A stretch of 64,000 nt of DNA from Aggregicoccus sp. 17bor-14 (GTDB lineage Bacteria > Myxococcota > Myxococcia > Myxococcales > Myxococcaceae): NCBI RefSeq assembly GCF_009659535.1, contig NZ_VJZZ01000001.1, forward strand, positions 325,424 through 389,423. The letters run 5' to 3'. The notes beneath the pieces are model-generated. The model was given only the letters and a program-made list of their open reading frames with translations, was not told where the DNA came from and ran no database searches. Each line of letters begins with the position of its first letter. Position 1 is the stretch's first letter. This document shows positions 37,806 through 63,772 of the stretch, piece by piece. The position numbers and the translations under genes were made by a program.

Positions 37806-37821
37806 TGCAGCCCCGGTGCCA
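37806..37821 (-). promoter_or_regulatory. Predicted sigma54 promoter of exoL-P
   Basis: On the minus strand TGGCAC-CGGGG-CTGCA matches the -24/-12 consensus TGGCAC-N5-TTGCW at all but one fixed position and has the required GG-N10-GC spacing. Predicted transcription start near 37795, about 47 nt before the exoL ATG. The rest of the 268-nt divergent gap (37749-38016) shows two TCCACCC copies 14 bp apart (37914-37920 and 37928-37934) upstream of it, and no clear promoter for ccmA. Confidence 0.6.
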
Positions 37822-48622: not shown

Positions 48623-49900
48623 CTACTTCACCGCCGCAAGCTTGCGCCGGAAGCGGCGCACGCGCTCCACCAGGTTCTCCGGCAGCACGCGCTTCACCGC
48701 GTTGCGCGCGGTGCGGGCGGCCTCCTCGTGGCGGGTGAACCACGCGCCCGCGCCCTTCGCCGCGTGCACGCGCACTGCCACGGTGCGCCGCTGCTGGCTC
48801 GTCCAGTCGGACTTGTAGGTCTCGGTGCCGCGCAGGAAGTCGTACTCGGTCATCCCGGCCGCGAAGGCGTCCTTGAAGGTCTCGCCCACCAGCACCAGGC
48901 CCACGCTCTTGTTGCGCCAGGCGGGGTCGTAGCCGGACTGGAAGTAGATGAAGCTGCCCCTGTGCAGGATGCCGTAGACGCTGGCCACGGCCTGGCCGCC
49001 CACCTTCATCGTGTACATGCGCAGCCGGCCGCGCTCGGCGAGCAGCCCGGTGGCGTCGCGGTGGAAGGCCTCCACGCCCGCGCCCTTGATGCCCTGCGAG
49101 CCGCCGTCACCCGCCCAGCGCATCGCGTGCAGGCGGAAGAAGTCCGTCATGGGCGCGGCGAGCGCGCCCGGCGACTCGGTCTTCTCGATGCGGTAGCCCT
49201 CCTGCTTCTCGAGCCACTTGCGGCGGCGCAGGTAGTTGTCGCGGCGCCCCGTGCGCTTGAGGAAGGCGTCGAAGGGCTCCTTCGGGTCCAGCGTCTCGAA
49301 GGGGCACACGTAGCGCTCGCTCACGCGGACGACGTCTGCGCCGAAGGCCTCCTGCAGGAGCTTCACCGTGAGCGAGCCCTCGCGCAGGTCGAGGAGGTCC
49401 AGCACGTCCCACTCGGCGCGCAGCTCGCGCAGCTGGCTGATGAAGGCCCGGGTGACGGGCTCCTCCTCGCCGCGGCGCGCGACCACGTCCAGGTAGTCGC
49501 TGCCCACGTGCGTCTCGCCGAGGAAGGCGAGCCGGCGCACGCTGCGCCCCAGCACCTTGCGCGTCTCGAGCGCGAGCGGCATCAGCCCCGCGAGGCTGCC
49601 ACGGCGGTCGCGCGCCACCAGCACGAAGGGCTGGCGGTCCATGGCGATGCGCCGGTACCAGGGATACAGCCACTCCCAGGCGTTGAAGGGCCCCGCGTCG
49701 CTCGCATCCAGCAGCGCGTCCCACTCGCCGCGCAGGGCGGCGAAGTCGGCGCCGCTGCGCACGCTGGTCACCTCGAACCACTGGGAGGTGTGCGGCTGCG
49801 GCTGCGGCGAGGGCGTCAGGTCGGCTTCTCGGATCACGGTGTTGCTCCAGTTGGAAACAGGCTCCCCCAGCGACGACGCCGGGGGCGGCTCAGCCGGCAC
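48623..49900 (-). CDS. exoI: FemAB/BioF2-like acyltransferase (ExoI-like)
   Basis: A 425-aa GNAT-fold acetyltransferase of the Acetyltransf_6 type found in polysaccharide loci. The N-terminal FNAWEWLYPWYRRIAMDRQPFVLVARD and the C-terminal ASVYGILHRGSFIYFQSGYDPAW and YDFLRGTETYKSDWT are family hallmarks. It probably N-acylates an amino sugar made by the neighbouring aminotransferase. The GTG start overlaps the exoH stop by 11 nt. Last gene of the exoA-I run; the name follows family and order in M. xanthus. Confidence 0.75.
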   Translation of the reverse strand: MPAEPPPASSLGEPVSNWSNTVIREADLTPSPQPQPHTSQWFEVTSVRSGADFAALRGEWDALLDASDAGPFNAWEWLYPWYRRIAMDRQPFVLVARDRRGSLAGLMPLALETRKVLGRSVRRLAFLGETHVGSDYLDVVARRGEEEPVTRAFISQLRELRAEWDVLDLLDLREGSLTVKLLQEAFGADVVRVSERYVCPFETLDPKEPFDAFLKRTGRRDNYLRRRKWLEKQEGYRIEKTESPGALAAPMTDFFRLHAMRWAGDGGSQGIKGAGVEAFHRDATGLLAERGRLRMYTMKVGGQAVASVYGILHRGSFIYFQSGYDPAWRNKSVGLVLVGETFKDAFAAGMTEYDFLRGTETYKSDWTSQQRRTVAVRVHAAKGAGAWFTRHEEAARTARNAVKRVLPENLVERVRRFRRKLAAVK

Positions 49901-51077
49901 GCGAGCGCTGGGGACGGGTCTGCACCAGCGCGTCGCGCACGGCGTCGGCGATCTGCGCCATCTCGTCAGGACCGAAGTCCTGGTGGCAGGGAATCTCCAG
50001 GATCGTGCGCCGCAGCTCGGCGACCTCCGGGAACTCGGAGGCGTTGCAGGCGGGGTGGAAGTACTTCCAGAAGTCGATGGCGTCGATGCCGCGCGCGCGC
50101 AGGTTCTCGAGCAGGGCGGGCTTGTTCTCCACCACCATCGGGTAGAAGAGCGGGCAGACGCCGGGGGCGAGCTGGTTGAAGAGCGGCGGGGACACGTCGC
50201 GCAGGCGCGCGAGCAGGTAGAAGTAGTTGCGCCGCCGCTGCTCCACCACGCTCGCCAGGTCCTGCGCGAGCGCGATGCGCTTGGTGAGCGGGCTCATGCC
50301 CAGGTCCACGTGCTTGCGGTTGAAGTGCTGGGTGCCGGTGGCCACGCGCTCGATGCTCGCGGCCTTCACCGTGCCCCGGCCCACCCCGCGGATGGCGGCG
50401 CGCAGCGCGCGGCCCACGCTGCCGCCGCGCAGCTCGAGGTTCTGCAGCAGCGAGCCCACCGTGTGGCTGAAGGTGCTGGTGGTGGGAGGCGCGGGCGGCT
50501 CGGGCACGCTGTACTGGCGCGGGCCGTTGATCACCATGGCGCCGCCGTTGGGCACCGGCAGGGTCTTGTAGAGGCAGAAGATGCCCACGTCACCCGTGCT
50601 GCCCAGCGGCACGGTGCCGTCCGAGGAGAGCAAGGACAGCGCGCAGTCCTCGATGAGGGGCAGCCCGTGCTTGTCGGCGAGGGCGCGCATCTCGGCCGCG
50701 GGGCCCGGGAAGCCCGCGTAGTGGATGAGGTAGAGCGCGCGCGTCTTCGGACCGATGCGCCGCTCCACGTCCGCGAGGTCCACGTCCCAGCGGCTGCCCA
50801 CGCGGTAGAAGCGCGGGGTGACGCCGGCGTCCACCAGCGCCTCGATCTCCACGCCGTGGTGGTAGGCGGGGACCAGGACCTCTCCCCCACCCTGGTCCAG
50901 CCCCAGCATCTTCACCGTGAGCCACACCGCGTTGCGCGCGAAGTAGAAGTAGCGCACGGACGGCGAGGCGAAGGGCAGGAAGCCGCCCACGTCCTTGCGC
51001 GCGAGCAGCATGCTGGGCCACAGCGTCGGCAGGGACGGAACGAACATGCGCCCGGCGTTGCTCTTCACTTCTTCCAT
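49890..51077 (-). CDS. exoH: DegT/DnrJ/EryC1-type aminotransferase (ExoH-like)
   Basis: A 395-aa PLP enzyme of fold type I. EVLVPAYHHGVEIEALVDAG is the cofactor-binding N-terminal region, EDCALSLLSSDG resembles the PLP ring-stacking site, and the Schiff-base lysine is in FCLYKTLPVPNGGAM. It would transaminate a keto-sugar nucleotide to an amino sugar or act on a related substrate. The ATG at 51077 overlaps the exoG stop by 13 nt; the longer open frame upstream is exoG shadow. It lies between two acyltransferase genes, consistent with making and then acylating an amino sugar. Confidence 0.8.
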   Translation of the reverse strand: MEEVKSNAGRMFVPSLPTLWPSMLLARKDVGGFLPFASPSVRYFYFARNAVWLTVKMLGLDQGGGEVLVPAYHHGVEIEALVDAGVTPRFYRVGSRWDVDLADVERRIGPKTRALYLIHYAGFPGPAAEMRALADKHGLPLIEDCALSLLSSDGTVPLGSTGDVGIFCLYKTLPVPNGGAMVINGPRQYSVPEPPAPPTTSTFSHTVGSLLQNLELRGGSVGRALRAAIRGVGRGTVKAASIERVATGTQHFNRKHVDLGMSPLTKRIALAQDLASVVEQRRRNYFYLLARLRDVSPPLFNQLAPGVCPLFYPMVVENKPALLENLRARGIDAIDFWKYFHPACNASEFPEVAELRRTILEIPCHQDFGPDEMAQIADAVRDALVQTRPQRSRAG

Positions 51078-52222
51078 CGCGACACCACCTCTTTCGCCGC
51101 TTCCTTGGCGGCAGGAGCCCAGCGGAACTTCGCGGTGCACAGCGCGCGCGCGAAGGCCGTGTCGTTGAACAGGTAGAGCCAGGTGTGGCGGCGGACCTTG
51201 TCCGTCCAGTCGCGCTTCCACACCATGTCCGGCCCCAGGAAGTCGAACTCGCGCACCCCGCGCGCGATGCAGTCGCGCACGGCCTCCTCCATCAGGAGCT
51301 GGCCGGGGCTGCACTCCTTCAGGCGCTCGTCGTAGCCGGGCTTGAGCAGCAGGTAGCGCTCGCCGTGCGTGAGGCCGAACTGGAAGGCGACGGCGCGGTC
51401 GTCCAGGCGCAGGAAGTAGAGCGTGAGGCGGCCGTTGCGGGCGCTCTCGCGCGCGAGCTCCGTGTAGAAGCCGCGCGTGCGCACGTCCTGCGCCATGGCG
51501 GTGCCGCGCTGGCCCTTCCAGCCGCTCGCCTCCAGGGCGAAGCCCTCCTCCAGCTTCGCGTCCAGCTCCACGCCGCCGTCGTAGCGCTCGAAGCGCACCT
51601 GCCCGCGCTCCTCCAGCTTCTTGCGGCGGCGGCGGCAGTTGGCCTTGAACTTGGACTGCAGCGTGGCGAGGAAGGCGTCGTGGCGGGCAGGGAGTGGGAA
51701 GTACGGCGACTGCAGAGACTCCCAGCTGCCGGTGGCGAGCCCCGCCCTGGCGGCCGCCGCGTGCAGCTGCCAGCCCGCGCCGCCCTCGGGCACGTCGTTG
51801 AGGCGCAGCACGTCCCAGCCGCGGTCCTGGCGCAGGTGCGCGAGGAAGGCCTGCGCCGCGGCCTCGGGCTCGCGCGCCACGACGTCGAAGCGGCAGGAGT
51901 GCGGGTTCGCCGCGGAGACCAGCTGGCGCACCGGGGCGCCGTACATGTTGCTCTTCTCGAGCAGCAGGGGCAGCGCGGCCGAGAGGCTCCCGTCCGGCTC
52001 ACGCAGGGTGAGCACGCGCAGCTGCGCGCCGGGGGCGAAGTTGTCCAGCCACACCCGCAGGAACTCGTGGCGGTAGAAGAGCTCGTCACCCGTCTGGGAG
52101 ACCAGCGCGTTCCACTCGGGCTCGAGGGCCATGAAGGCGGCCCGGTCGGTCACCACCTGCACGCGCGCCTGGGGCGCGGGGGCGGCGGCTTCCTGCGGGG
52201 CGCTCAGCTGAAGGGCTTCCAT
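51065..52222 (-). CDS. exoG: FemAB/BioF2-like acyltransferase (ExoG-like)
   Basis: A 385-aa GNAT-fold acetyltransferase related to ExoI. ELFYRHEFLRVWLDNFAPG, the basic segment SKFKANCRRRRKKLEERGQ and the C-terminal QFGLTHGERYLLLKPGYDE and EFDFLGPDMVWKRDWT are typical of the family. Likely acylates a sugar of the repeat unit. The ATG at 52222 is the first good start; the upstream extension is exoF shadow. Separated from exoF by 95 nt containing a stem-loop. Confidence 0.77.
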   Translation of the reverse strand: MEALQLSAPQEAAAPAPQARVQVVTDRAAFMALEPEWNALVSQTGDELFYRHEFLRVWLDNFAPGAQLRVLTLREPDGSLSAALPLLLEKSNMYGAPVRQLVSAANPHSCRFDVVAREPEAAAQAFLAHLRQDRGWDVLRLNDVPEGGAGWQLHAAAARAGLATGSWESLQSPYFPLPARHDAFLATLQSKFKANCRRRRKKLEERGQVRFERYDGGVELDAKLEEGFALEASGWKGQRGTAMAQDVRTRGFYTELARESARNGRLTLYFLRLDDRAVAFQFGLTHGERYLLLKPGYDERLKECSPGQLLMEEAVRDCIARGVREFDFLGPDMVWKRDWTDKVRRHTWLYLFNDTAFARALCTAKFRWAPAAKEAAKEVVSRWKK

Positions 52223-52260
52223 GTCTTTGTCCGCTTCTCCAGGTGCTGTGACTTCGGAAA

Positions 52261-52293
52261 GGCCCGCTCCGCGCCGCTCGCGCAGGGCGGGCC
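52261..52293 (-). other. Stem-loop in the exoF-exoG gap
   Basis: GGCCCGC 52261-52267 pairs with GCGGGCC 52287-52293, and GCGC 52271-52274 with GCGC 52280-52283. It lies between the exoF stop and the exoG start. Similar hairpins occur in the other large gaps of this operon. Confidence 0.35.
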
Positions 52294-52317
52294 CAAGGTG
52301 GGGATGGGCCCGGGCGG

Positions 52318-53403
52318 CTACAAGCCGCTGCGCGCCATCTTCAGGAGGCAGCGCGCGACCTTGCGGCTGTCGTGTCGGATCTTGGACCCTTCCTTGAGCA
52401 GGTCCGCCTCGACCGGGATCACCCCCGCGCTGATGAGGGCGCGGCGGTCCACCGTCACCGGGAAGGCGCCGCGGCGCGCGTAGCGGCGGATGGCCTCGGG
52501 CTCCGGCACGGTGCCGTTGACCAGCACGGCGTCCAGCACGGGGCCCACGTGATCCAGCACCGCGCGCACGTGATCCAGGCAGTCCATGCCGTCCGTCTCG
52601 CCCGGCTGGGTCATGAGGTTGGCCACCATCACCTTGAGCGCCCGCGTCTCCTTGAGCGCGCGCGCGACCCCGTCCACCAGCAGGTTGGGCAGCACGCTCG
52701 AGTAGAGCGAGCCGGGGCCGATGGTGATGAGGTCCGCGCTGTGGATGGCCTCGATGAGCCCGTCCACCGGCGGGGGGCTGCGCGGGCTGAGGCTCACCCG
52801 GCGCACGCGGCCCTGGGCGCGCGCGATCGCCCGCTCGCCCACGACCTCGGTGAAGTCCTCCATCTGGGCCACCAGCTGCACCGGTGCGAGCGTGCTGGGC
52901 AGCACCTGCCCCTTGGCGCCCAAGAGCTCCCCGCTCAGGCGCACCGCCTCGAGGAAGTCCCCCTTGAGCTCGGCGAGCGCGGCGATCAGGAGATTCCCCA
53001 CCGCGTGGCCCGCGAGCCCCTTCGCACCCCCGAAGCGGTACTGGAACACCTCGCCCAGGGCGCTCTTCTTCCCACCCGCCAGCGCCACGAGGCAGTTGCG
53101 GATGTCGCCCGGCGGCAGCGCGCCGTGGTCGCGGCGCAGCCGGCCGCTGCTGCCGCCGTCGTCGCTCATCGCCACCACCGCGGTGATGTCCAGTCCCGGC
53201 TCCCCCAGCCGCGGCTCGGCGCGGCGCGCCAGCCCCCGCAGCACCATGGGCAGCCCCGTGCCGCCGCCCATGGCGACGATCTGCGTGGGGCGCTGCTCCA
53301 GCGGGCGGTTGAGCAGCTCGTTGCGCTGCTGCTCCTCCCGCGCGGCGCGCTCCAGCGCGTCGTGCAGCCCGTTCAGTGGAATCTCCGAGTGCAACCCTGA
53401 CAT
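52318..53403 (-). CDS. exoF: YvcK/CofD-like protein (ExoF-like)
   Basis: A 361-aa protein of the gluconeogenesis factor (YvcK/MgfK) family with a Rossmann-like CofD fold. IVAMGGGTGLPMVLRGL and VVAMSDDGGSSGRLRRDHG are signature motifs; ITIGPGSLYSSVLPNLLV and NLMTQPGETDGM follow. YvcK of Bacillus binds UDP-sugars and influences cell-envelope synthesis; a role in sugar-nucleotide sensing or transfer fits its place in a polysaccharide operon but is inferred. The ATG has AGGGGG about 6 nt upstream. M. xanthus exoF occupies the same position between exoE and exoG. Confidence 0.82.
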   Translation of the reverse strand: MSGLHSEIPLNGLHDALERAAREEQQRNELLNRPLEQRPTQIVAMGGGTGLPMVLRGLARRAEPRLGEPGLDITAVVAMSDDGGSSGRLRRDHGALPPGDIRNCLVALAGGKKSALGEVFQYRFGGAKGLAGHAVGNLLIAALAELKGDFLEAVRLSGELLGAKGQVLPSTLAPVQLVAQMEDFTEVVGERAIARAQGRVRRVSLSPRSPPPVDGLIEAIHSADLITIGPGSLYSSVLPNLLVDGVARALKETRALKVMVANLMTQPGETDGMDCLDHVRAVLDHVGPVLDAVLVNGTVPEPEAIRRYARRGAFPVTVDRRALISAGVIPVEADLLKEGSKIRHDSRKVARCLLKMARSGL

Positions 53404-53441
53404 GTCCGTCCCCCTGCCCGCCGCCCTTTACAGCCTTACAG

Positions 53442-53462
53442 CCCACCCACCCCGCCCTGCCC
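53442..53462 (-). other. G-quadruplex-forming run in the exoF leader
   Basis: On the transcribed strand five G-runs of three or four are separated by loops of one or two bases. It lies 39 nt upstream of the exoF ATG in the 124-nt exoE-exoF gap. A tandem GGCTGTAA repeat (53428-53443) adjoins it. Such an RNA could affect exoF translation or transcript stability. Confidence 0.45.
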
Positions 53463-53477
53463 TCTGTCCTGCCCTGC

Positions 53478-53503
53478 GCGTGCCCTGGCCCCCAGGGGCA
53501 CGC
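53478..53503 (-). other. Stem-loop in the exoE-exoF gap
   Basis: About 11 bp with one bulge: GCGTGCCC at 53478-53485 pairs with the GGGCACGC end at 53496-53503, extended by TGG/CCA. It begins 25 nt after the exoE stop and no U-tract follows. Confidence 0.4.
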
Positions 53504-53527
53504 TCCTGCTCACTGCAACCGCCGGGC

Positions 53528-54895
53528 CTACCGCGCCCCTCGCGCCAGCAGCACGTGGCGCACGGTGTGGAAGATGATCCCGATGTCCAGGAACAGGCTC
53601 CCGTTCTTCACGTAGTAGAGGTCGAACTCGAGCTTGTTGCGCGAGTCCTCCACCGAGGCCCCGTAGGGGTAGCGGATCTGCGCCCAGCCGGTGATGCCCG
53701 GCTTCACCGCCTCGCGCAGGCCGTAGAAGGGGATCTGCTTCTTGAGCTGCTCGATGAACACGGGGCGCTCGGGGCGCGGGCCCACGAAGCTCATGTCCCC
53801 GAGCAGCACGTTGAACACCTGGGGGATCTCGTCGATGCGCGTCTTGCGGATGAAGCGCCCCACGCGGGTGACGCGGTCGTCGTTGGCCTTGGCCCACACC
53901 GCGCCGTCCTTCTCCGCATCCGTGCGCATGCTGCGGAACTTCCAGAGGAAGTAGCTGCGCCCGGCGAGCCCCGTGCGCTCCTGCCGGTAGAAGAGCGGGC
54001 CCTTGGAGTCCAGCTTGATGGCCACCGCCACCAGCAGGAGGAAGGGCGCGGCGAGCAGCACCAGCACGCTGGACACCGCGATGTCGAAGGCGCGCTTGAG
54101 CCCGCGGCGCAGGGGCGACACGGTGAGCTCGTCCGCGAAGGCGAAGTCGCTCGCGCGCAGGTGCGCGACCGGGATGCGGCGCAGCACGCGCTCGCAGAAG
54201 CCGATGGCGTCGTAGACGCGCAGGCCGTTGAGCCGGCAGCGCAGCAGCGCCTCCATCCAGTTCACGCCGCGCATGTCGTCCGCGGCCTGCACCACGTACT
54301 CGGCGCCGAGGCGCTCCGCCGTCGCGTCGATGCTCTCGCTCGCGGTGCGCGGGTCCACCATGGCCACCACGCGGAAGCTGTCCTCGCCGCCCTCCTCGAT
54401 CGCGAGCGCCACCTGGCGCGCCTTCACGCCGTTGCCCACCACCAGCACGCGCGCGGGCTCGCCCACCACCGCGTGCATCGCGGCGCGCACCGTGAGGGTG
54501 CCGGCGAGCGCGCCCATCGCCCCGCCCAGGAGCGCCCCCGGCGGCATGCTCACGTGCACGAGCAGCGGGACGAGCATCATCAGCACGCCCACCACCACGG
54601 CCGTCGCTCCGGCCGCCTTGAGGAAGCGGTAGCCGCGGCGGCGGTCCTCGGTGGCCACGCGCAAGTCGTAGAGATCCAGCAGGTACAGCGTGAACTGGAA
54701 GGTGGCCACGAAGGCCGCGCTGAGGATCAGCAGCGCCGGCGCGAAGTGGTGCCACTGCAGGGGCTCACCCGCCGGGGCGAGCGCCGCCGCCAGCCCCACC
54801 GCGCCGATGAGGCACGCGAGCGCGATGGCCGAGCTCTCTGCGAGAAAGAAGGCCAGCTTCCTGGCCGAGAAGTAGTGATGGAAAACGCGAAGCAC
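53528..54895 (-). CDS. exoE: Polyprenyl-phosphate hexose-1-phosphate transferase (ExoE-like)
   Basis: A 455-aa priming sugar transferase. Four or five N-terminal helices, a soluble Rossmann-like domain (VLVVGNGVKARQVALAI), then the catalytic domain from about 255: LKRAFDIAVSSVLVLLAAPFLLL, PLFYRQERTGLAGRSYFLWKFRSM, RKTRIDEIPQVFNVLLGDMSFVGPRPE and ITGWAQIRYPYG, the WbaP/PglC core with its Asp-Glu pair. It starts repeat-unit synthesis by loading a sugar phosphate onto undecaprenyl phosphate; in M. xanthus ExoE is the initiating enzyme. GTG start with AGGAGG 8 nt upstream. Confidence 0.88.
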   Translation of the reverse strand: MLRVFHHYFSARKLAFFLAESSAIALACLIGAVGLAAALAPAGEPLQWHHFAPALLILSAAFVATFQFTLYLLDLYDLRVATEDRRRGYRFLKAAGATAVVVGVLMMLVPLLVHVSMPPGALLGGAMGALAGTLTVRAAMHAVVGEPARVLVVGNGVKARQVALAIEEGGEDSFRVVAMVDPRTASESIDATAERLGAEYVVQAADDMRGVNWMEALLRCRLNGLRVYDAIGFCERVLRRIPVAHLRASDFAFADELTVSPLRRGLKRAFDIAVSSVLVLLAAPFLLLVAVAIKLDSKGPLFYRQERTGLAGRSYFLWKFRSMRTDAEKDGAVWAKANDDRVTRVGRFIRKTRIDEIPQVFNVLLGDMSFVGPRPERPVFIEQLKKQIPFYGLREAVKPGITGWAQIRYPYGASVEDSRNKLEFDLYYVKNGSLFLDIGIIFHTVRHVLLARGAR

Positions 54896-54955
54896 TCGAA
54901 ACCCCTCCTACCCGCCCTACACCCACACCCGATGCAAACCGACCGCCCCTTGCGC

Positions 54956-54992
54956 CGCGCGCCCCCGGAAGGAGCCCCTCCGGGAGCGCGCG
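54956..54992 (-). other. Stem-loop in the exoD-exoE gap
   Basis: A 14-bp stem with a single C/A mismatch (54956-54969 with 54979-54992) and a 9-nt loop, between the exoD stop (55029) and the exoE start. Strong enough to slow polymerase or block 3'-exonucleases; no U-tract. Confidence 0.45.
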
Positions 54993-55028
54993 GTGACTGC
55001 TCCAGCACAGCGCCCTGCGACGGCAGGG

Positions 55029-55799
55029 CTACTTCTTGAGGTAGTTCTTCAGGTACGGCGTGGTGTGCGTCTCCGCGCCGTTGAGGATGCAGCCGAGCAC
55101 CGGCGCGCCCCCGAGCTGCTCCACCGCCTGGTTCACGGCCTTCACCGGCGTCACGTTCGCGCGGATGACCATGAGCACGCCGTCCGCCTGGTGCGCGAGG
55201 ATGCCCGCGTCGGCGAAGGGCAGCGAGGGAGGCAGGTCCACGTAGATCTCGTCGAAGCTCTCGCGCACCGCCTTGAGCAGCTGCTTCATGCGCGAGCTCG
55301 CGAGCACCTGGGTGGGCTCCTCCGGCACGCCGCCGGCGGGCAGGATGGCCAGCCGGGTGGCGGCGAAGCGGCGCACCACGTCGCGCACCTCGACCTCGCC
55401 CGCGAGCAGCTCGCTGAGGCCCGGCTTGCTCTTGATGCCGAGCACGGTGCCCACGTTGCTGCGGCGCAGGTCCGCGTCGACGAGCAGGATGCGGCGGTCC
55501 GGGTTCGCCCGCGCGGCGGCGAGCGCCAGGTTCACCGCCGACACCGTCTTGCCCTCGCCGGGCATCGCGCTGGTGAAGGCGATGACCTTCATGGGCCGCA
55601 GCTCGCGCATGCGCTCGAGCCGATAGTAGAGGCTGCGGTACTGCTCGGCCGCCGCCGAGGCCGGGGCGGTGAGGCTGACCAGACGGCGGTCCACCTCGTT
55701 CCCCGTCACGCTCTCGTCCACGCGGGGAAGGAAGTTGCCCGCCCGCTCCATCGTCTGATCCATCTCGTTCCTCGAAGAATTCGTCGGGTTCACAGTCAT
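55029..55799 (-). CDS. exoD: Bacterial tyrosine-kinase-like ATPase (ExoD-like, CpsD/Wze type)
   Basis: A 256-aa cytoplasmic ATPase of the BY-kinase family. Walker A FTSAMPGEGKT, the Walker A' segment ILLVDADLRRSNVG and Walker B IYVDLPPSLPF are present. The C-terminus TPYLKNYLKK has only two tyrosines, fewer than the usual cluster, so regulation by autophosphorylation may be simple. It would pair with the Wzz-like ExoC to control polymerisation and export. The ATG at 55799 is used; another ATG at 55841 is in frame, and neither has a perfect ribosome-binding site. Confidence 0.83.
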   Translation of the reverse strand: MTVNPTNSSRNEMDQTMERAGNFLPRVDESVTGNEVDRRLVSLTAPASAAAEQYRSLYYRLERMRELRPMKVIAFTSAMPGEGKTVSAVNLALAAARANPDRRILLVDADLRRSNVGTVLGIKSKPGLSELLAGEVEVRDVVRRFAATRLAILPAGGVPEEPTQVLASSRMKQLLKAVRESFDEIYVDLPPSLPFADAGILAHQADGVLMVIRANVTPVKAVNQAVEQLGGAPVLGCILNGAETHTTPYLKNYLKK

Positions 55800-55851
55800 C
55801 CCCCTCTGACCTGCGGCGCCCACTGAGCGTCGGGTCTCCATTTTTTCAGCC

Positions 55852-57261
55852 CTAGTTCAGGGACCCCGGGGAAGAAATTCCGTTCCGGGACGCAGGAGCG
55901 GGCATCAGCACCCGCCGCTCGCTCTTGCCCTGCATGTTCGGCACCACCGCGAGCACCGGCAGCGTGAGGCGCTCCTTGATCTCGCTGCTGTCGCGGATAC
56001 TGTCGTCGCGCATCTCCATCACCACGCCGGTGAGCACGCCGAGGCCCAGGGCCACGAGCAGGCTGATCATCAGGCCGCCCATGCGGTCCGGCTTGGCGGG
56101 GCTGAAGGGCACGCCGGCCGGGGAGATGACGTTGAAGAGGCTCTTGGCGCTCTTGGCCTCGAGGTCCTCGGCGAGCTCGGCCTCCACCTTGCGGCTCACC
56201 ACGCTCTGGTACTTGGTGCGGGCGATCTCGTAGTCGCGGTTGAGCACGCCCAGCTCGTGGGCCCAGCGCGGGGTCTGGTCCAGGCGCTTCTGGTAGGTCT
56301 CGGCCTGCTTCTGCAGGTCACCGATGCTCTGCTGGATGTCGGTGATGAGCTGCGCCACGCGGGTGCGCTCCGCGCGCTCGGCGAACATGCGGCTCTCGGC
56401 GTCCTTGCGCTTGGCGCTCATCGCGTCGAGCTCGGCGGACAGGCGCTTGATCTCCGGGTGATCCGCGGTCCAGGTGGTCTTCGCGGTGACCAGGTCCTTG
56501 GTGAGGGTGTCCTCGGCGAGCTCGAGGCGGCCGGCCTCGCTGTCCGCCGCGTTGCGGGCGCGGGCCAGGTCGGAGCGGCGCGCCTCGGCGATGCGCAGCT
56601 CCTCGCTCTTGGTCTGCAGCTGCTGGCTGATGCGCTCCAGGCCGCGCATGTTCATCTCCATCTGCTCGGGCAGCTCACCCATGTGGTCCACCTTGAACTG
56701 GGCGATCTTGCGCTCCCACTCGGTGACGCTCTTGGAGAGCGAGCCCATCTCGTCCTGGAAGAGCTGGGTGGCGCGCGCGGCCTGAGCCTGGCGCAGCTTC
56801 AGCGTCTCCTCGGCGAAGATGGCGGGAAGGCGGTTGGCCACCTTGGCGGCCGTCTCCTTCTCGTGGCTCGAGTAGGTGATCTCGAAGGCGTTCTCACCCT
56901 CCACGCGCACCTCCAGGTCCTTGCGCATGGCGTCCACCGCGGCGTCGATCCCGTCCTCGCTCACGATGTTCGGGTAGAGGTTCATCTCCTCGATGGCCTT
57001 CTGCAGCACGGGGCGCGCCATCAGCTCCTGGCGCACGGTGAGCAGGCGCTGCTCGATGAGCTCGCTCACGGTGTGCTGCACCATCTCCTCGGCCGGCCGC
57101 TGCGGCTCCACGCGCACCACGGCGGTCGCCTGGTACACGTTGGGGCGGGTCATCACGACTGCCGCTCCCATGATGAACGCCGCCACTGCGATGGCTCCCA
57201 CCAGAGCCCTGCGGCGCCACAGGGCCGCCAACATCTGGTCTGCCGTCATCCCACGCTCCAT
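55852..57261 (-). CDS. exoC: Polysaccharide co-polymerase (Wzz/Wzc N-domain type, ExoC-like)
   Basis: A 469-aa inner-membrane protein with a Wzz domain: first helix about 19-39, a periplasmic portion with long coiled coils (about 150-330, for example LRIAEARRSDLARARNAADSE), and a second helix about 397-417, preceded by the Pro-rich PAGVPFSPAKPDRM. The kinase part of Wzc is missing and is supplied separately by exoD. It likely sets chain length and links the polymerase to the export channel. ATG start with AGGAGG upstream. 38 nt after exoB. Confidence 0.85.
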   Translation of the reverse strand: MERGMTADQMLAALWRRRALVGAIAVAAFIMGAAVVMTRPNVYQATAVVRVEPQRPAEEMVQHTVSELIEQRLLTVRQELMARPVLQKAIEEMNLYPNIVSEDGIDAAVDAMRKDLEVRVEGENAFEITYSSHEKETAAKVANRLPAIFAEETLKLRQAQAARATQLFQDEMGSLSKSVTEWERKIAQFKVDHMGELPEQMEMNMRGLERISQQLQTKSEELRIAEARRSDLARARNAADSEAGRLELAEDTLTKDLVTAKTTWTADHPEIKRLSAELDAMSAKRKDAESRMFAERAERTRVAQLITDIQQSIGDLQKQAETYQKRLDQTPRWAHELGVLNRDYEIARTKYQSVVSRKVEAELAEDLEAKSAKSLFNVISPAGVPFSPAKPDRMGGLMISLLVALGLGVLTGVVMEMRDDSIRDSSEIKERLTLPVLAVVPNMQGKSERRVLMPAPASRNGISSPGSLN

Positions 57262-57299
57262 TTTCCACTCCTCCTAAGACAGGCCTTCCGAAGCCGTCG

Positions 57300-58505
57300 C
57301 TACCAAGCCGTGAACACCGCACGGACCGCCGCGACATTGCGCGACAGGTCCACCGCACCCGTGGCCGCCCCGCCCGGCCCGGCGGCAGGAGCCTGCGGCC
57401 CCCCCACCTGGTCGATGCGGTCCACGGTCCCCTGCAGCGCGAGGTACCGGTTGAGCCGGTACTCCACGCCACCCCCGACTGCGTAGCCCTGGGACACACC
57501 GTCCTGGGCGCTGAAGCTCGTGAGCCCCTGATTGGGGGCCTTGCCGTTGCGGAAGAAGCTGGCCGCACCGAACACGTTGAAGTTGTCGCTGAAGGCGCGC
57601 GACGCGACGAGGCTCGCGTAGTCCGCCCACAGCGTCCGATCGAAGCCGCTCGCGCCCACCAGGTCGTGGCCCACCACGAGGCCCAGCGCCGCGTGCTCCA
57701 CCTCGCGCGTGAGCTCCAGCTGCACGCGCGGGATGACGCCCTGCCCGCCCGCGACTCCCGAGTGCGGCTGGAAGAAGACGGGCCCGCCGCGCGCGGTGAA
57801 GGTGGTCCAGCGCGTGAGGTGGTAGCGCAGCATCGCGCTGGGCGTGTGCGACTGGTCCAGGCCGTTGCTCAGCTGGAAGGCCTGGTAGCGGTACTCGGTG
57901 CCCAAGAGCAGCCGGCGCGACACGCCGTACCAGGCCTCGAGCGTGGGCGTGTGCACGAAGTCACCGCGCGCGCTCTTGCCCTCCAGCCCCACGCCCACCT
58001 GCGGCGTGGCCGCGTACACGCGCGCCGCCTCGAAGGTGTAGGCCCCGCGCACGTTCCAGCGCCGCGACACGCGGCCGCCGAGCCCCACCGTGGCCTTGCC
58101 GTAGAGAATGGGGTCGAAGGTCGCCCCCAGGCCCTGGCGCGGCAGGCTGGTGGGGTCCGTCACCCGGAACACCCGCAGCGCCGTGTCCAGGCGGAGGTTG
58201 CGGCTGAGCTGCTTCTTGAGGTCCACCCCGGCGCGGTGATCCAGCGAGGTGCTCCCCGAGCCGTGGCGGATGAACGCGTCCGCCGCGTAGAAGGAGTCCA
58301 GCACCAGGGTGGGATCCTTCGCCTCGAGCCCGAGGCGCGGGGACAGCTTGCTCATCAGCTGGCCGCCCGCCCCGTTCTCGCGCAGGCGCAGGTCGGTGTC
58401 GTAGCGCTCCTCGGCCGTCACCTTCAGCGAGGGCGTGAACACCGTCCCCGCCAGCGCTGCCGGCGCGCAGAGCACCACGCACGCCGCCATCAGTCTGTTG
58501 CGCAT
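57300..58505 (-). CDS. exoB: Outer-membrane beta-barrel protein (ExoB-like)
   Basis: A 401-aa protein with signal peptide (about 1-19, ending CAPAALAG) and a series of amphipathic strands throughout, for example LLLGTEYRYQAFQLSNG, GYAVGGGVEYRLNRYLALQG and the terminal VAAVRAVFTAW ending in an aromatic residue, as expected for an outer-membrane barrel assembled by Bam. In exo-type pathways of myxobacteria this barrel is thought to replace or complete the outer-membrane part of the Wza channel. The ATG at 58505 has GGAGG 8 nt upstream; the upstream extension is not protein-like. Confidence 0.8.
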   Translation of the reverse strand: MRNRLMAACVVLCAPAALAGTVFTPSLKVTAEERYDTDLRLRENGAGGQLMSKLSPRLGLEAKDPTLVLDSFYAADAFIRHGSGSTSLDHRAGVDLKKQLSRNLRLDTALRVFRVTDPTSLPRQGLGATFDPILYGKATVGLGGRVSRRWNVRGAYTFEAARVYAATPQVGVGLEGKSARGDFVHTPTLEAWYGVSRRLLLGTEYRYQAFQLSNGLDQSHTPSAMLRYHLTRWTTFTARGGPVFFQPHSGVAGGQGVIPRVQLELTREVEHAALGLVVGHDLVGASGFDRTLWADYASLVASRAFSDNFNVFGAASFFRNGKAPNQGLTSFSAQDGVSQGYAVGGGVEYRLNRYLALQGTVDRIDQVGGPQAPAAGPGGAATGAVDLSRNVAAVRAVFTAW

Positions 58506-58569
58506 CGCCAACGCCTCCCCTCCCACCCACCGCCAGATGACTGCACTTGCGCTGCCTGCAACCACTCCC

Positions 58570-58620: not shown

Positions 58621-59217
58621 CTACGGAACGACGATGGTGTCGCCCGGGCGCAGGATGACGTCGTACTTCTCCTGCGCGTCCCCCTTCACCAGGTCGCTGT
58701 AGCGCACCGGGATGCGCTGGCTCTTGGCGCCCGCGTCCGTGGAGGTGCGGATGACCACGATCTCGTCCGAGTCCGCGAAGTCGGTGAAGCCGCCCGCCTG
58801 CGCGAGCACCTGCAGCAGCGAGACGCGGCCGCGCAGCGGGTAGGCACCCGGGTGCGTCACCTCGCCGGTGACGAACACGCGGCTGCTGTTCACCTCGCGC
58901 ACGATCACGTTCACGCGCGGCTCCTGCACGTACGGCTTGAGCTTCTCCTTGATCTCGTTCTCCAGCTCGCCGGGCGTCTTGCCCGCGGCCATCAGCTCAC
59001 CCGCCATGGGCATGGTGATGAAGCCGTCCGGCCGCACCGGGAGCACCCGGGAGAGGTCCGGATCGCGCCACACCGCGATGTCGAGCACGTCCTCGCGCCC
59101 GATGCGGAACGGCTTCTCCGAGTTGTCCACCTGGGGGGCCTGCTGGTGGGCGCATCCCGAAAGGAGGAGCATCCCGAACCCCATCACCGCCATCGCCCTC
59201 GCGCTCTTCTTGAACAT
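58621..59217 (-). CDS. exoA: Polysaccharide export lipoprotein (Wza-type, ExoA-like)
   Basis: A 198-aa outer-membrane lipoprotein (lipobox LLSGC, Cys22). The poly-export domain FRIGREDVLDIAVWRDPDLS (about 37-56) is followed by one SLBB domain, VFVTGEVTHPGAYPLRGRVSLLQVLAQAGG. It lacks the C-terminal amphipathic helix with which E. coli Wza spans the outer membrane, so the barrel ExoB probably completes the channel. The ATG at 59217 has an AGGAGAGGG site; 13 extra in-frame codons upstream lack similarity. First gene of the exoA-I operon; in M. xanthus the gene is also called fdgA and is reported as a target of the developmental regulator FruA. Confidence 0.85.
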   Translation of the reverse strand: MFKKSARAMAVMGFGMLLLSGCAHQQAPQVDNSEKPFRIGREDVLDIAVWRDPDLSRVLPVRPDGFITMPMAGELMAAGKTPGELENEIKEKLKPYVQEPRVNVIVREVNSSRVFVTGEVTHPGAYPLRGRVSLLQVLAQAGGFTDFADSDEIVVIRTSTDAGAKSQRIPVRYSDLVKGDAQEKYDVILRPGDTIVVP

Positions 59218-59306
59218 CTTTCCCTCTCCTCCCTCAGTGCCACTCGATTCATCCACCGCGGTACGGCATTGCCCACACGGTGGCCTGCATTCGGGGCACT
59301 GGCCTT

Positions 59307-59322
59307 AGCACCGGGTGTGCCA
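59307..59322 (-). promoter_or_regulatory. Predicted sigma54 promoter of exoA-I
   Basis: TGGCAC-ACCCG-GTGCT on the minus strand: the -24 element is perfect and the -12 element differs at one position from TTGCW, with GG-N10-GC spacing. The start should fall near 59296, giving a leader of about 79 nt before exoA. Confidence 0.65.
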
Positions 59323-59451
59323 CCCCCTCGGAGTGCCCAAACCTCGGGAATCTGGGGGTTTCAGTGAGGTAGGTGCAAGGAGGACAGGGGAAGATCGGGA
59401 AATTTTTTCGGCTGATCCCCAGAGGACACCGGGGTCCTTCCCGTGATCAGG

Positions 59452-59499
59452 GCCCACCCGTGGAAGGGTTTTGCCCACATGCTCGCTGCGGTTGCCCAC
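59452..59499 (-). promoter_or_regulatory. Three GCCCAC hexamers at exact 21-bp spacing (candidate enhancer)
   Basis: GCCCAC occurs at 59452-59457, 59473-59478 and 59494-59499; the last two extend to TTGCCCAC. The 21-bp period is two helical turns, placing all copies on one DNA face, about 155-200 bp upstream of the predicted exoA start. That is the usual place for activator sites at sigma54 promoters. Confidence 0.5.
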
Positions 59500-59587
59500 G
59501 CCCCGGGGGAGAGCCGCTCGGCACGCTGCTTGTAAGGACCTCCCGTGGACGCCGGGCAGTGGGCCCGGGAACCTGGAGCGTGCACCG

Positions 59588-59779
59588 ATGGGGAAGGCAG
59601 CGGGGGCGGTGGTGGCGGTGTTCATGGTGGGCAGCGGGGCGATGACTCTCCTGAGCACGGTGCTCGGGGCGTACGCCGAGGCTGCGGCGCTGGGTCTGAT
59701 CGGGCTCGGCCTCTTCGCCACGAGCTCTGCGCTGGCGGGCAAGCTGCCCGCGCCGACCGGTGTCGCCAAGGAGGCGTAG
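59588..59779 (+). CDS. Small membrane protein of unknown function
   Basis: A 63-aa protein with two hydrophobic helices (about 5-25 and 29-49; GAVVAVFMVGSGAMTLLSTVLGA then ALGLIGLGLFATSSALAG) joined by a short acidic turn and ending in a short polar tail. No known domain. The ATG at 59588 fits a compact two-helix protein; the frame is open upstream but reads as Arg/Pro-rich non-protein sequence. GGAG lies about 11 nt upstream. It is 49 nt before treZ on the same strand and divergent from exoA. Confidence 0.55.
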   Translation: MGKAAGAVVAVFMVGSGAMTLLSTVLGAYAEAAALGLIGLGLFATSSALAGKLPAPTGVAKEA

Positions 59780-59828: not shown

Positions 59829-61724
59829 GTGCCGGACGAGGACCGCAGGCTGACGCTGGGTGCGCGCCCCTCGCTCGAGGGGCGCACGCGTTTCCGCGTC
59901 TGGGCGCCGCGGCGCGAGCGCGTCGAGGTGTGCCTCGCGGGTGCACCGGGCGCTTCCGCAGCCGTCTGCCTGCCGCTGCAGCGTGCGAGCGGGGGCTACT
60001 TCGAGGGCGAGCTGCCGGTGCCCACCGGCGCGCTCTACACGTACCGGCTCGATGGCGGGGCCTGCTTCCCGGACCCCGCCTCGCGCTTCCAGCCGCAGGG
60101 GCCTCACGGCCCCTCGCAAGTGGTGGACCCGCGCCGCCATGCGTGGGGGGACGCCGCCTGGCGGGGCCCCGAGCTCCGGGGCCAGGTGCTCTACGAGCTG
60201 CACGTGGGCACCTTCACGCGCGAGGGCACCTATGCGGCCGCGGCGCACCGCCTGCCGCAGCTCGCGGAGCTCGGCGTCACCTGCCTCGAGCTGATGCCGC
60301 TGCACACCTTCCCGGGCCGCTTCAACTGGGGCTACGACGGGGTCACCCTCTTCGCGCCCTGCGCCGTGTACGGCAGCCCGGACGACCTGCGCCGCTTCGT
60401 CGACCGCGCGCACGCGCTGGGGCTCTCGGTGCTGCTGGACGTCGTCTACAACCACCTGGGCCCGGACGGGAACTACCTCGCCCAGTACTCGCCCGGCTAC
60501 TTCAGCACCCGCTACCCGGGCGAGTGGGGAGACCCCACCAACTTCGACGCGTACCCGGACGCCGAGGGCAGCCGCGAGTTCTTCATCCAGAACGCCTGCC
60601 ACTGGGTGAGCGAGTACCACTTCGACGGGCTGCGGCTCGACGCCACCCAGAGCCTCTTCGATCAGAGCGCGCGCCACGTGGTGCAGGAGCTCACGGCGCG
60701 GGTGCGCGAGGCGGCGGGCCCCCGCCGCGTGCTCGTGGTCTCCGAGAACGAGCCCCAGGACGTGCGCTGCGTCCAAGCTCCCGAGCAGGGAGGCCACGGC
60801 ACGGACGCCCTGTGGATCGACGACTTCCACCACACGGCGCGCGTGGCGGCGCTGGGGCGGCGCGAGGCGTACCTCGTGGACTACACCGGCACGGCGCAGG
60901 AGCTGCTCTCGTGCGCGCTGCGCAACGCGCTCTACCAGGGCCAGCACTACCGCTGGCAGCAGAAGCCGCGCGGGACGCCCTTGCTGCACACCCCTGCCCC
61001 GCACGCCGTCTTCTTCCTGCAGAACCACGATCAGCTCGCCAACACGCTGCGCGGCGAGCGGCTGTGCCAGCTGGCGGGCCCCGCGCGGGCGCGCGCGCTG
61101 ACGCTGCTGCTGCTGCTCTTGCCGCAGACCCCGCTGCTCTTCATGGGCCAGGAGTGGGCGGCGAGCACGCCCTTCCTCTACTTCGTCGACCACAAGGAGG
61201 AGCTGCAGCCCCTGGTCGAGCGGGGCCGCAACGCCTTCGTCTCGCAGTTCCCGGCGGCGCGCGAGGCGCTGGAGCACGAGGGCTTCCGCATCCCCTTCGG
61301 CGAGGAGGCCTTCAGGCGCTCACAGCTGGACTGGAGCGAGTGCGAGCGCGAGCCGCACCGCGGCATGCGCGAGCTGCACCGTAAGCTGCTGCGGCTGCGG
61401 CGCGAGGACCCGGTGTTCGCGGCCCAGGCGCGCGAGCGGCTCGCGGGCGCGGTGCTCTCGCGCGACGCGCTGGTGCTGCGCTACCTGGGGGACGGGCAGC
61501 AGGGCGACCGGCTGCTGCTCTTGAACCTGGGGACCGAGCTGGACCTGTCCCCCTGCCCGGAGCCCCTGCTGGCGCCGGAGGCGGGAAAGCTTTGGCGCCC
61601 GCTGCTGTCTTCAGAGGAGACCCGCTTCGGCGGGAGCGGAATGGCGCCGCTCGAGGACGGGGGCCGCTGGCGACTCCCGGGGCAGACGGCCTGCGTACTC
61701 ATCAGTGAGGAGAGGACCGCGTGA
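59829..61724 (+). CDS. treZ: Malto-oligosyltrehalose trehalohydrolase
   Basis: A 631-aa GH13 enzyme that releases trehalose from maltooligosyl-trehalose. An N-terminal CBM48-like domain (TRFRVWAPRRERVEVCL) precedes the barrel: YELHVGTFTREGTY, FPGRFNWGYDGV, LDVVYNHLGPDG, DGLRLDATQ (nucleophile Asp), VVSENEPQ (acid Glu) and LQNHDQLAN (stabilising Asp). TPFLYFVDHKEEL is typical of TreZ rather than glycogen branching enzyme. The GTG start has GGGAGGG upstream. The partner treY is not in the window. It overlaps the debranching gene as GTGA. Confidence 0.88.
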   Translation: MPDEDRRLTLGARPSLEGRTRFRVWAPRRERVEVCLAGAPGASAAVCLPLQRASGGYFEGELPVPTGALYTYRLDGGACFPDPASRFQPQGPHGPSQVVDPRRHAWGDAAWRGPELRGQVLYELHVGTFTREGTYAAAAHRLPQLAELGVTCLELMPLHTFPGRFNWGYDGVTLFAPCAVYGSPDDLRRFVDRAHALGLSVLLDVVYNHLGPDGNYLAQYSPGYFSTRYPGEWGDPTNFDAYPDAEGSREFFIQNACHWVSEYHFDGLRLDATQSLFDQSARHVVQELTARVREAAGPRRVLVVSENEPQDVRCVQAPEQGGHGTDALWIDDFHHTARVAALGRREAYLVDYTGTAQELLSCALRNALYQGQHYRWQQKPRGTPLLHTPAPHAVFFLQNHDQLANTLRGERLCQLAGPARARALTLLLLLLPQTPLLFMGQEWAASTPFLYFVDHKEELQPLVERGRNAFVSQFPAAREALEHEGFRIPFGEEAFRRSQLDWSECEREPHRGMRELHRKLLRLRREDPVFAAQARERLAGAVLSRDALVLRYLGDGQQGDRLLLLNLGTELDLSPCPEPLLAPEAGKLWRPLLSSEETRFGGSGMAPLEDGGRWRLPGQTACVLISEERTA

Positions 61725-63772
61725 GAGAGAAATCGCCCCCCCTGCCGCGCATGGAGTTCCAGTGGCCGCGAGGCCCCGAGGCCAGCGAGGTGCTCAGCCG
61801 CGAGTGGCTGGTGACGAACGGGCGCGGCGGCTACGCGTCCGGCACCATTGCCGGCTGCAACACGCGCCGCTACCACGGCCTCTTCATCCCCAACATCCCC
61901 GAGCACGGGCGCACCGTGCTGCTCGCGCGCCTCACCGAGGAGGTGGTGCTCGGCGGAGGCGCCAAGCGCGTGCGCCTGGACGCCGAGGAGCACGCGGACG
62001 GCACGCTGGTGAGCAGCAACCTGCCCTTCCTGAGGGCGTTCCGGCTCCACGGCCTGCTGCCGGAGTGGGAGTTCGAGGTGGACGGCGCCCGGCTGCGGCG
62101 CCGGCTCGTCCTGGTCCACGGCACCAACAGCCTCTTCGTCGCGTGGGATCTGCTCTCGGGCTCCGAGCTCACCCTGCGCGTGCGCCCCTACCCGGTGATG
62201 CGCCCGCACGACCAGGGGATGCCGCCGCAGCCGTGGAGCCCGGTGGTGAACCTGCGCGAGGACCGCGTCGAGGTGCGCGCGAACGAGCACTCGCCCGCCA
62301 TGCGGATGAAGATCTTCGCGCCCCGCCCCATGCCCTTCGTGGGCCTCTACGACGTGTCCGCCCCGCTGCTGTACCGGACGGAGAAGGCGCGCGGCTACGA
62401 TCACGTGGAGACGCAGGCGAGCCCCGGCTACTTCGAGTGCACGCTGCGCGCCGGAGAGACCGTGGTGCTCGGCGTCACCACCGAGGACTGGAGCTCGCTC
62501 GGGACCCTGCCCACGGAGGCCTTCGAGCACGAGCAGACGCGCGAGCGGCACCTGCTCTCACGCGCGCCGGCCGCGACCCACGACAAGGTCGCCGAGCGGC
62601 TGGTGCTCGCGGCGGACCAGTTCGTCATCGAGCCCATGCGCCCGCGCGACGATGCCTGGGCGCGCGCCATCGGGCACGACGCGCGCAGCGTCATCGCCGG
62701 CTACCACTGGTTCACCGACTGGGGCCGCGACACGATGATCTCCCTGGAGGGGCTCACCCTGTGCACGGGGCGCCTGCGCGAGGCGGCGGCCATCCTGCGC
62801 ACCTTCCGTCACTACGTGCGCGACGGCCTGCTGCCCAACCTCTTTCCCGAGGGCAACAGCGAGGGCCTGTACCACACGGCGGACGCCACGCTCTGGTTCT
62901 TCCACGCCATCGACCGCTACCTGGAGACCACGAAGGACCGGGCGCTCCTTCAGGACTTCTTCCCCACCCTGCAGGAGATCGTCACCCGCCACCTGCAGGG
63001 CACGCGCTTCAACATCCGCATCGATCCCGCGGACGGCCTCTTCACCCAGGGCGAGCAGGGCTACCAGCTGACCTGGATGGACGCGAAGGTGGACGGCTGG
63101 GTCGTCACCCCGCGCCGCGGCAAGGCCGTGGAGCTCAACGCGCTCTGGTACAACGCCCTGCGCCTGATGGCCACGTGGGCCGAGCAGCTGGGAGAGGACC
63201 CGGCCCCCTACGTGCGCGACGCGGACCGCACCGAGGCCTCGTTCAACCAGCGCTTCTGGAACGAGCGCGAGGGCTGCCTCTACGACGTGGTGGACGCCGA
63301 GGGCGGTGGCAACGACGCCGCCGTGCGCCCGAACCAGATCTTCGCGATCTCGCTGCGCAACCCCGTGCTGCGCCGCGACCGCTGGGAGCCGGTGCTGCGC
63401 AAGGTCACCGAGCAGCTGCTCACCCCCGTGGGGCTGCGCTCGCTCGCCCCGGGCCACCCCGACTACAAGCCAAACTACGACGGCAACCTCCGCGCGCGCG
63501 ACGCCGCCTACCACCAGGGCACCGTGTGGAGCTGGCTCATCGGCCACTACGTGGATGCGCGCCTGAAGGTGGACCCGGACCGCTCGCGGGCCCGCGAGGT
63601 GCTCAGCGGGCTGCAGGAGCACCTGGAGCACGCCGGCGTCGGCCAGGTGAGCGAGATCTTCGACGCCACCGAGCCCTACCGCCCCCGCGGCTGCATCGCC
63701 CAGGCCTGGGGCATCGCCGAGGCCCTGCGGGTGTTCCTCAAGACGACCCCGGCGCAGGCTCCCGGCCGCTGA
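61721..63772 (+). CDS. Amylo-alpha-1,6-glucosidase / glycogen debranching enzyme-type protein
   Basis: A 683-aa protein of the GDE family (GH133-type). The N-terminal domain has REWLVTNGRGGYASGTIAGCNTRRYHGLF, diagnostic for the family; the (alpha/alpha)6 catalytic region begins about 290 with FTDWGRDTMISLEGL, then LFTQGEQGYQLTWMDAKVDGWVVTPR and YHQGTVWSWLIGHYVDA. It removes alpha-1,6-linked glucose from glycogen-like polymers, feeding linear glucans to the trehalose route of treZ. GTG start overlapping the treZ stop. Linking glycogen breakdown to trehalose is sensible for a spore-forming bacterium, but this is inference. Confidence 0.87.
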   Translation: MREKSPPLPRMEFQWPRGPEASEVLSREWLVTNGRGGYASGTIAGCNTRRYHGLFIPNIPEHGRTVLLARLTEEVVLGGGAKRVRLDAEEHADGTLVSSNLPFLRAFRLHGLLPEWEFEVDGARLRRRLVLVHGTNSLFVAWDLLSGSELTLRVRPYPVMRPHDQGMPPQPWSPVVNLREDRVEVRANEHSPAMRMKIFAPRPMPFVGLYDVSAPLLYRTEKARGYDHVETQASPGYFECTLRAGETVVLGVTTEDWSSLGTLPTEAFEHEQTRERHLLSRAPAATHDKVAERLVLAADQFVIEPMRPRDDAWARAIGHDARSVIAGYHWFTDWGRDTMISLEGLTLCTGRLREAAAILRTFRHYVRDGLLPNLFPEGNSEGLYHTADATLWFFHAIDRYLETTKDRALLQDFFPTLQEIVTRHLQGTRFNIRIDPADGLFTQGEQGYQLTWMDAKVDGWVVTPRRGKAVELNALWYNALRLMATWAEQLGEDPAPYVRDADRTEASFNQRFWNEREGCLYDVVDAEGGGNDAAVRPNQIFAISLRNPVLRRDRWEPVLRKVTEQLLTPVGLRSLAPGHPDYKPNYDGNLRARDAAYHQGTVWSWLIGHYVDARLKVDPDRSRAREVLSGLQEHLEHAGVGQVSEIFDATEPYRPRGCIAQAWGIAEALRVFLKTTPAQAPGR

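Follow-up and report, generated by a model that had tools for sequence, protein, structure and literature searches.

The 16 nucleotides at 59307-59322 on the minus strand of the window, that is, the whole 64,000-nucleotide stretch of Aggregicoccus sp. 17bor-14 DNA analysed here, most probably (at roughly 0.92) serve the exoA-I spore-coat operon as its core sigma-54 promoter, which would be opened by an enhancer-binding protein bound upstream, likeliest at two palindromic blocks, C and B.

Probable Core Promoter and the exoA-I Operon

The promoter and the nine genes behind it are arranged as follows:

59307-59322, minus strand: predicted sigma-54 core promoter of exoA, TGGCACACCCGGTGCT (TGGCAC-ACCCG-GTGCT)
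58621-59217, minus strand: exoA, Wza-like outer-membrane polysaccharide export protein (Pfam Poly_export/SLBB)
57300-58565, minus strand: exoB, predicted start, no Pfam match, placed by position and similarity to relatives
55852-57261, minus strand: exoC, Wzz (Pfam)
55029-55841, minus strand: exoD, AAA_31, BY-kinase (Pfam)
53528-54895, minus strand: exoE, Bac_transf, sugar transferase (Pfam), predicted start
52318-53403, minus strand: exoF, CofD, i.e., CofD/YvcK (Pfam)
51065-52222, minus strand: exoG, GNAT (Pfam)
49890-about 51077, minus strand: exoH, DegT, aminotransferase (Pfam), predicted start
48623-49900, minus strand: exoI, GNAT (Pfam), predicted start

The label of an exoA-I operon, given by an earlier reading of the sequence only, holds by Pfam family (exoB apart) and by gene order, with exoB to exoI spanning 48623-58565 on the minus strand in the order known from Myxococcus xanthus. 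This order is also found in other families, complete in L279, L281, L282 and L283 (in L281, the exoI match lands on the exoG place) and with seven of the nine genes in L280. According to PMC3858216, exoA-I is essential to spore-coat synthesis, and PMC2875238 gives fdgA as MXAN_3225, induced 12.3-fold in glycerol sporulation. The exoA ATG at 59217 has a GGAGG-like ribosome site directly 5' and is also backed by the ortholog alignment.

Reading the minus-strand letters from 59322 to 59307, the -24 GG lies at 59321-59320 and the -12 GC at 59309-59308, separated by 10 bases, and the -24 hexamer has no mismatch, confirming the perfect -24 element and GG-N10-GC spacing of the sequence-only reading. 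Its leader of 79 nt was likewise reproduced, from a predicted +1 at 59296 (placed 12 bases beyond the C of GC) to the ATG. Compared with TGGCAC-N5-TTGC[TA], the site has a single mismatch, in the -12 element, where GTGCT is one base from TTGC[TA]. The M. xanthus consensus is given as TGGCACG-N4-TTGC(T/A) in PMC9765219, whose mutation-tested examples include nla6, with GTGTT as its -12 element; in addition, PMC7910581 describes several characterised sigma-54 promoters in which a single base of GG or GC is changed.

With a hand-written sigma-54 matrix, this site has the top score of the 64-kb window (15.46, the runner-up having 14.52), and the pattern TGGCAC-N5-[CG]TGCT has a chance expectation of 0.0003 occurrences in 300 bp of a single strand and of 0.13 in 64 kb with both strands counted. 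Genome-wide (6.92 Mb), the core pattern is not enriched, occurring 19 times compared to 27 for the reversed pattern; in the window, a looser sigma-54 pattern is under-represented (14 observed, 27.8 expected). Another, looser pattern gave 29 versus 18. Motif counts by themselves were discarded as evidence and, as the core is not over-represented in the genome, the case for a promoter rests on its conservation in place.

Conservation of the Core

This conservation was studied in 63 orthologs, one of them in a genome of family f7 and the others in family f1, where 62 of 70 genomes having an exoA ortholog were used (left out: G057, G059, G061, G064, G066, G071, G115 and G117), excluding the duplicates L034-L044 and with an upstream sequence of 395 bp for L024. 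In all 63, the highest sigma-54 score of the 600 bp before exoA belongs to TGGCAC-N5-[CG]TGCT, lying 28-110 bp 5' of the chosen start codon, so that the sequence-only reading, which had named a failure of related exoA promoters to keep the element as a refutation, came through this check. Pairwise identity averages 0.98 over the eleven sigma-54 positions, 0.68 in the variable spacer and 0.47-0.49 in the flanks; ten of the eleven positions are invariant and the remaining one is C or G, giving CTGCT in 53 orthologs and GTGCT in 10, including this genome. The 30 other ortholog-grade exoA homologs all belong to other families of the order; GG-N10-GC lies close to the gene in 27 of them, with scores of 11.8-16.4, the misses being L153, L166 and L109 (the last at a contig end). 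Meanwhile, none of 17 exoA paralogs (31-42% identical) used as a control reaches 10.5, the best having 10.2, and, among 28 exoA homologs outside the order, one scores 12.0 and the other 27 at most 9.6.

Because almost all relatives retain the element nearly letter for letter while the surrounding DNA has diverged, the 16-mer is, very probably, a true sigma-54 promoter. Moreover, the comparison across the order shows that this predicted wiring of exo to sigma-54 predates the genus Myxococcus.

TGGCAC-N5-GTGCTA can also be seen as an imperfect inverted repeat, and the site might then be an operator for a repressor or another dimeric regulator, as the arms GCAC and GTGC pair in this genome and the homologs of families f2 and f3 mostly have GTGCT. 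However, CTGCT spoils one arm in 53 of the 63 orthologs, yet GG-N10-GC persists, TGGCAT spoils the opposite arm in some f2 and f3 homologs, and the N5 spacer varies in the way that those of sigma-54 promoters do. The repressor palindrome was rejected on account of the broken arm, and an operator at this site is hardly credible.

The promoter had also been described as fitting a sporulation switch. The sigma-54 promoter within that description is supported, but its link to sporulation is not exclusive, as G013, G014 and G018, which we take to be Anaeromyxobacter strains, keep both the operon and the GG-N10-GC site, and this genus is not known to form fruiting bodies.

Sigma-54 Machinery and Upstream Blocks

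The genome encodes rpoN and has 40 Sigma54_activat matches, which, together with the conservation in 63 of 63 orthologs, support the earlier interpretation of a sigma-54 promoter under an enhancer-binding protein. In such a mechanism, RNA polymerase bearing RpoN would sit on 59322-59307 as a closed complex, until an enhancer-binding protein bound upstream, likeliest at the palindromic blocks C and/or B, hydrolyses ATP and opens it; only then would transcription start, near 59296.

Aligned on the core, the upstream regions of the 63 orthologs show four recurrent blocks, named D, C, B and A with increasing distance. The three on the exoA side are:

59339-59365, minus strand: block D, CGTAACCCACNNNGATCCANGGNNTTT in relatives, degenerate here, a possible FruA site (from ortholog comparison)
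59395-59411, minus strand: block C, palindromic CCGAAAAAATTTCCCGA (CCGGAAANTTTTCCCGG in relatives), candidate activator site
59460-59477, minus strand: block B, imperfect palindrome TGGGCAAAACCCTTCCAC (TGGGNAAANNTTTTCCCA in relatives), candidate activator site

Blocks C and B form phased palindromic candidates for activator binding. Block C lies about 89 bp before the core here, with its best match at -88 to -91 in 58 of the 63 orthologs, and block B about 155 bp before it, at -155 to -158 in 49 of 63; the motif of block B is also enriched genome-wide. Both resemble the palindrome GTGGGNAA-N4-TTNCCCAC, but they are unequal in half-site spacing and both copies are imperfect in this genome.

Block D matches at least 17 of 21 letters at 42-43 bp before the core in 55 of 63 orthologs, compared to 12 of 21 in this genome, which is among the eight lacking it, with seven loci of deeper-branching or lone genera. 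The exact FruA consensus, GGGYRN4-6YGGG in PMC4320627, was not matched in the five of the 63 orthologs scanned, this genome included. The same paper describes the M. xanthus exo promoter as FruA-dependent, with FruA bound upstream of the promoter. FruA does not belong to the enhancer-binding proteins, so sigma-54 may have a partner here, and FruA may contribute extra control through block D in the relatives. A stronger version would have a sigma-70-type or another developmental sigma factor drive the operon under FruA, with GG-N10-GC being secondary, and it could draw on the developmental sigma factors of M. xanthus, the FruA binding there (PMC4320627) and the position of block D, where a FruA site could be. 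This is very improbable, as GG-N10-GC is the only element near the start conserved down to the deepest orthologs, and eight of the 63 loci lack block D, including that of this genome, where the sigma-54 core is intact.

Other known regulators were considered for the sites upstream of the sigma-54 core. No tandem Nla28 half-site, CT[CG]CG[CG]AG, was found at up to one mismatch within 250 bp upstream of the core in this genome. Nla6, reported by Giglio and co-workers in 2015 to bind the exo promoter in M. xanthus, presumably recognizes CMACGNNGNC, as a direct repeat C(C/A)ACGNNGNC; this motif has no exact match in the same 250 bp, is present in 12 of 63 orthologs at variable positions and fails to account for blocks B and C. 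The MrpC motif TGTYN8RAC is absent here and present in 1 of 63 orthologs, in agreement with the failure of MrpC2 to bind fdgA from -100 to +1, as reported in PMC4320627. No fixed sites upstream of the core were found for Nla28, Nla6 or MrpC, and Nla28 and MrpC were discarded as regulators.

The Divergent Side

Beyond block B, the intergenic region faces genes on the opposite strand:

59519-59534, plus strand: block A, CGGCACGCTGCTTGTA, sigma-54-like, facing the divergent small gene
59588-59779, plus strand: divergent small gene, 63 aa, hydrophobic, no Pfam family at cut-off
59829-61724, plus strand: CBM48/alpha-amylase/DUF3459 gene (treZ-like)
61721-63772, plus strand: GDE (glycogen-debranching) gene

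Block A is placed at -210 to -236 relative to the core in 58 of 63 orthologs and was caught in 55 (five absent, three read in another frame), mostly as [CT]GGCACG-N5-TTG[ATG]. This genome has TTGTA where TTGCA would fit, and a C at -12 is present in none of the 55 loci caught; block A might work as a weak promoter. The divergent hydrophobic protein has about 63-76 residues across orthologs. In the stretches examined of nine named loci, the small gene is found in eight, the GDE gene in one and the treZ-like gene in none. The treZ-like and GDE genes could link glycogen to trehalose in spores.

A Palindrome Shared with CotH and Other Envelope Genes

At up to two mismatches, the palindrome TGGGNAAANNNTTTCCCA has 23 strand hits in this genome compared to 3 for its reversed control. 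The corresponding values (palindrome/control) are 18/5 in G119, 18/7 in G101, 18/7 in G083, 37/7 in G046, 22/6 in G068 and 16/0 in G054, the excess being weak in G074 (13/9) and G085 (4/2). In this genome, two sites lie immediately 5' of CotH genes. The cotH set was then composed of 29 of the 31 listed matches, in 14 of 15 genomes, after dropping one without a locus and L253, the second piece of the L239 gene. The palindrome at up to three mismatches is present in 14 of these 29 loci compared to 14 of 1160 shuffles, and a sigma-54-like site scoring at least 10.5 in 22, several loci lacking one or both elements.

Regarding the palindromes themselves, 41 loci were collected, 15 from the search of this genome and 26 returned for eight others, of which 37 were used (dropped: L211 and L230, which are exo, and L212 and L225, with cut flanks). 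An outward sigma-54-like site 40-160 bp from the palindrome occurs in 12 of the 37 compared to 6 of 296 control positions, and many palindrome matches have no sigma-54-like neighbour. Such pairs also precede a transglycosylase SLT gene (L215), a CHAP-like gene just under the Pfam cut-off (L229), a Hepar_II_III_N gene (L197, with a similar protein behind L228) and choice-of-anchor-like genes judged by eye (L208 and L219). L242 holds a perfect palindrome, GTGGGCAAACCGTTACCCAC. As a separate observation, L190 and L191, from two g19 genomes, carry a perfect palindrome TGGGTAAAA[GA]TTTTCCCA near base 4000; in L190 it stands about 140 bp upstream of a gene whose lipoprotein-like product has STNGL repeats.

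The presence of the palindrome before exo, CotH and envelope genes beside sigma-54-like sites suggests one enhancer-binding protein. The same activator would probably also act on the CotH-type coat genes and other envelope genes. In its full form, for which the chances seem even, one enhancer-binding protein recognizing GTGGGNAA-N4-TTNCCCAC would run a Myxococcaceae-wide sigma-54 spore-envelope regulon, comprising exo and the divergent small gene (sharing the sites between them), several CotH-type coat kinases, the lytic transglycosylase and the CHAP-like and heparinase-like proteins. Before exoA in other families, the palindrome is weaker, found in 9 of 28 at up to four mismatches compared to 48 of 840 shuffles. 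This weakening, together with the half-site mismatch between blocks B and C, the imperfect copies, the incomplete cotH loci and the lone palindromes, speaks against a single clean regulon.

Blocks B and C might instead bind a protein that is not an activator, for instance a growth-phase repressor of envelope genes, with the enhancer placed elsewhere (for Nla6 or another protein), which concerns the upstream blocks and leaves the account of the core untouched. Such a protein is rather unlikely, though the Nla6 binding reported for M. xanthus exo (Giglio, 2015) and the cotH loci where one of the two elements is absent would fit it; against it stand the palindromes placed outward of sigma-54-like sites, in the proportions given above, and the Nla6 motif CMACGNNGNC, with no exact match in the 250 bp here and no fixed place in the 12 of 63 orthologs having it.

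The 20-mer palindrome at three mismatches was rejected as a definition of the regulon, being too loose (404 hits per strand compared to 106 for the control). The distances from palindrome to core (n = 26) give a vector length of 0.53 at about 10.75 bp (p 0.01), a helical phasing that is suggestive only, because the loci are related and the distances were hand-picked. A search for the activator through autoregulation was discarded, as no Sigma54_activat gene was seen by eye within 5 kb of palindrome matches in this genome, G054 and G101. One looser match, with two mismatches, falls within a stretch coding for Sigma54_activat (C8:116176), apparently by chance.

A Probable Second Coat Operon in the Window

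The second-best sigma-54-like site of the window apparently fronts a second coat operon:

37806-37821, minus strand: second sigma-54-like core, TGGCACCGGGGCTGCA, score 14.5
36552-37748, minus strand: NodB-like polysaccharide deacetylase, then a flippase-like gene (families assigned by eye from translations)

This pair is presumably exoL-exoM. Homologs are found in five of the seven genomes with 40-60 kb behind exoA examined, and a site scoring 13.8-14.5 lies 68-91 bp before the gene start in all six loci (the window and the five relatives whose upstream sequence was available), compared to 12 of 2000 random 400-bp windows reaching 13.8. This recurrence also counts in favour of sigma-54 at the exoA core.

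Comparison with Known Systems

The closest system is the M. xanthus exo promoter (fdgA/exoA, MXAN_3225), with the same operon; in L025, which shares its contig with L041 (strain AM003), the corresponding position carries TGGCACACGCGCTGCT. This genome differs by its other spacer letters and degenerate block D. In M. xanthus, the control of exo by sigma-54 is presumably known in part and seems to have been published to some extent. In the open-licence literature searched, neither the conservation across the order nor the palindrome that exo has in common with CotH genes was met, which is no claim that they are unpublished.

Classical NtrC-type -24/-12 promoters, which have paired upstream sites, are alike in core, in spacing and in the two palindromic blocks about 100-180 bp before the start; however, blocks B and C differ in spacing and the region here serves two divergent genes. 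The M. xanthus actB promoter, TGGCACA-N4-TTGCT, has the same form and has been tested by mutation, as given in PMC9765219, but it is activated by Nla28 through CTSCGSAG half-sites, of which the exo promoter here has none at up to one mismatch. An enhancer-binding-protein gene with TGGCACAGCTGTTGCT upstream, matching the actB promoter, lies 4.5 kb past the window end (G000:C1:393957-396114), about 9 kb from exoA. It is probably actB, the nearest activator gene to exo, and as the activator of exo it is a candidate only. A similar enhancer-binding-protein neighbour is seen near exo in G054 (C72:23030).

Implications for Spore-Coat Synthesis

With exoA-I under sigma-54, the commitment step of myxospore formation, the export of the coat polymer, would be tied to a type of promoter that cannot leak without its activator. 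If the wider regulon is true, wall removal and coat building would switch on together. The palindrome also offers a specific DNA bait for the activator that may join coat synthesis, CotH genes and wall hydrolases.
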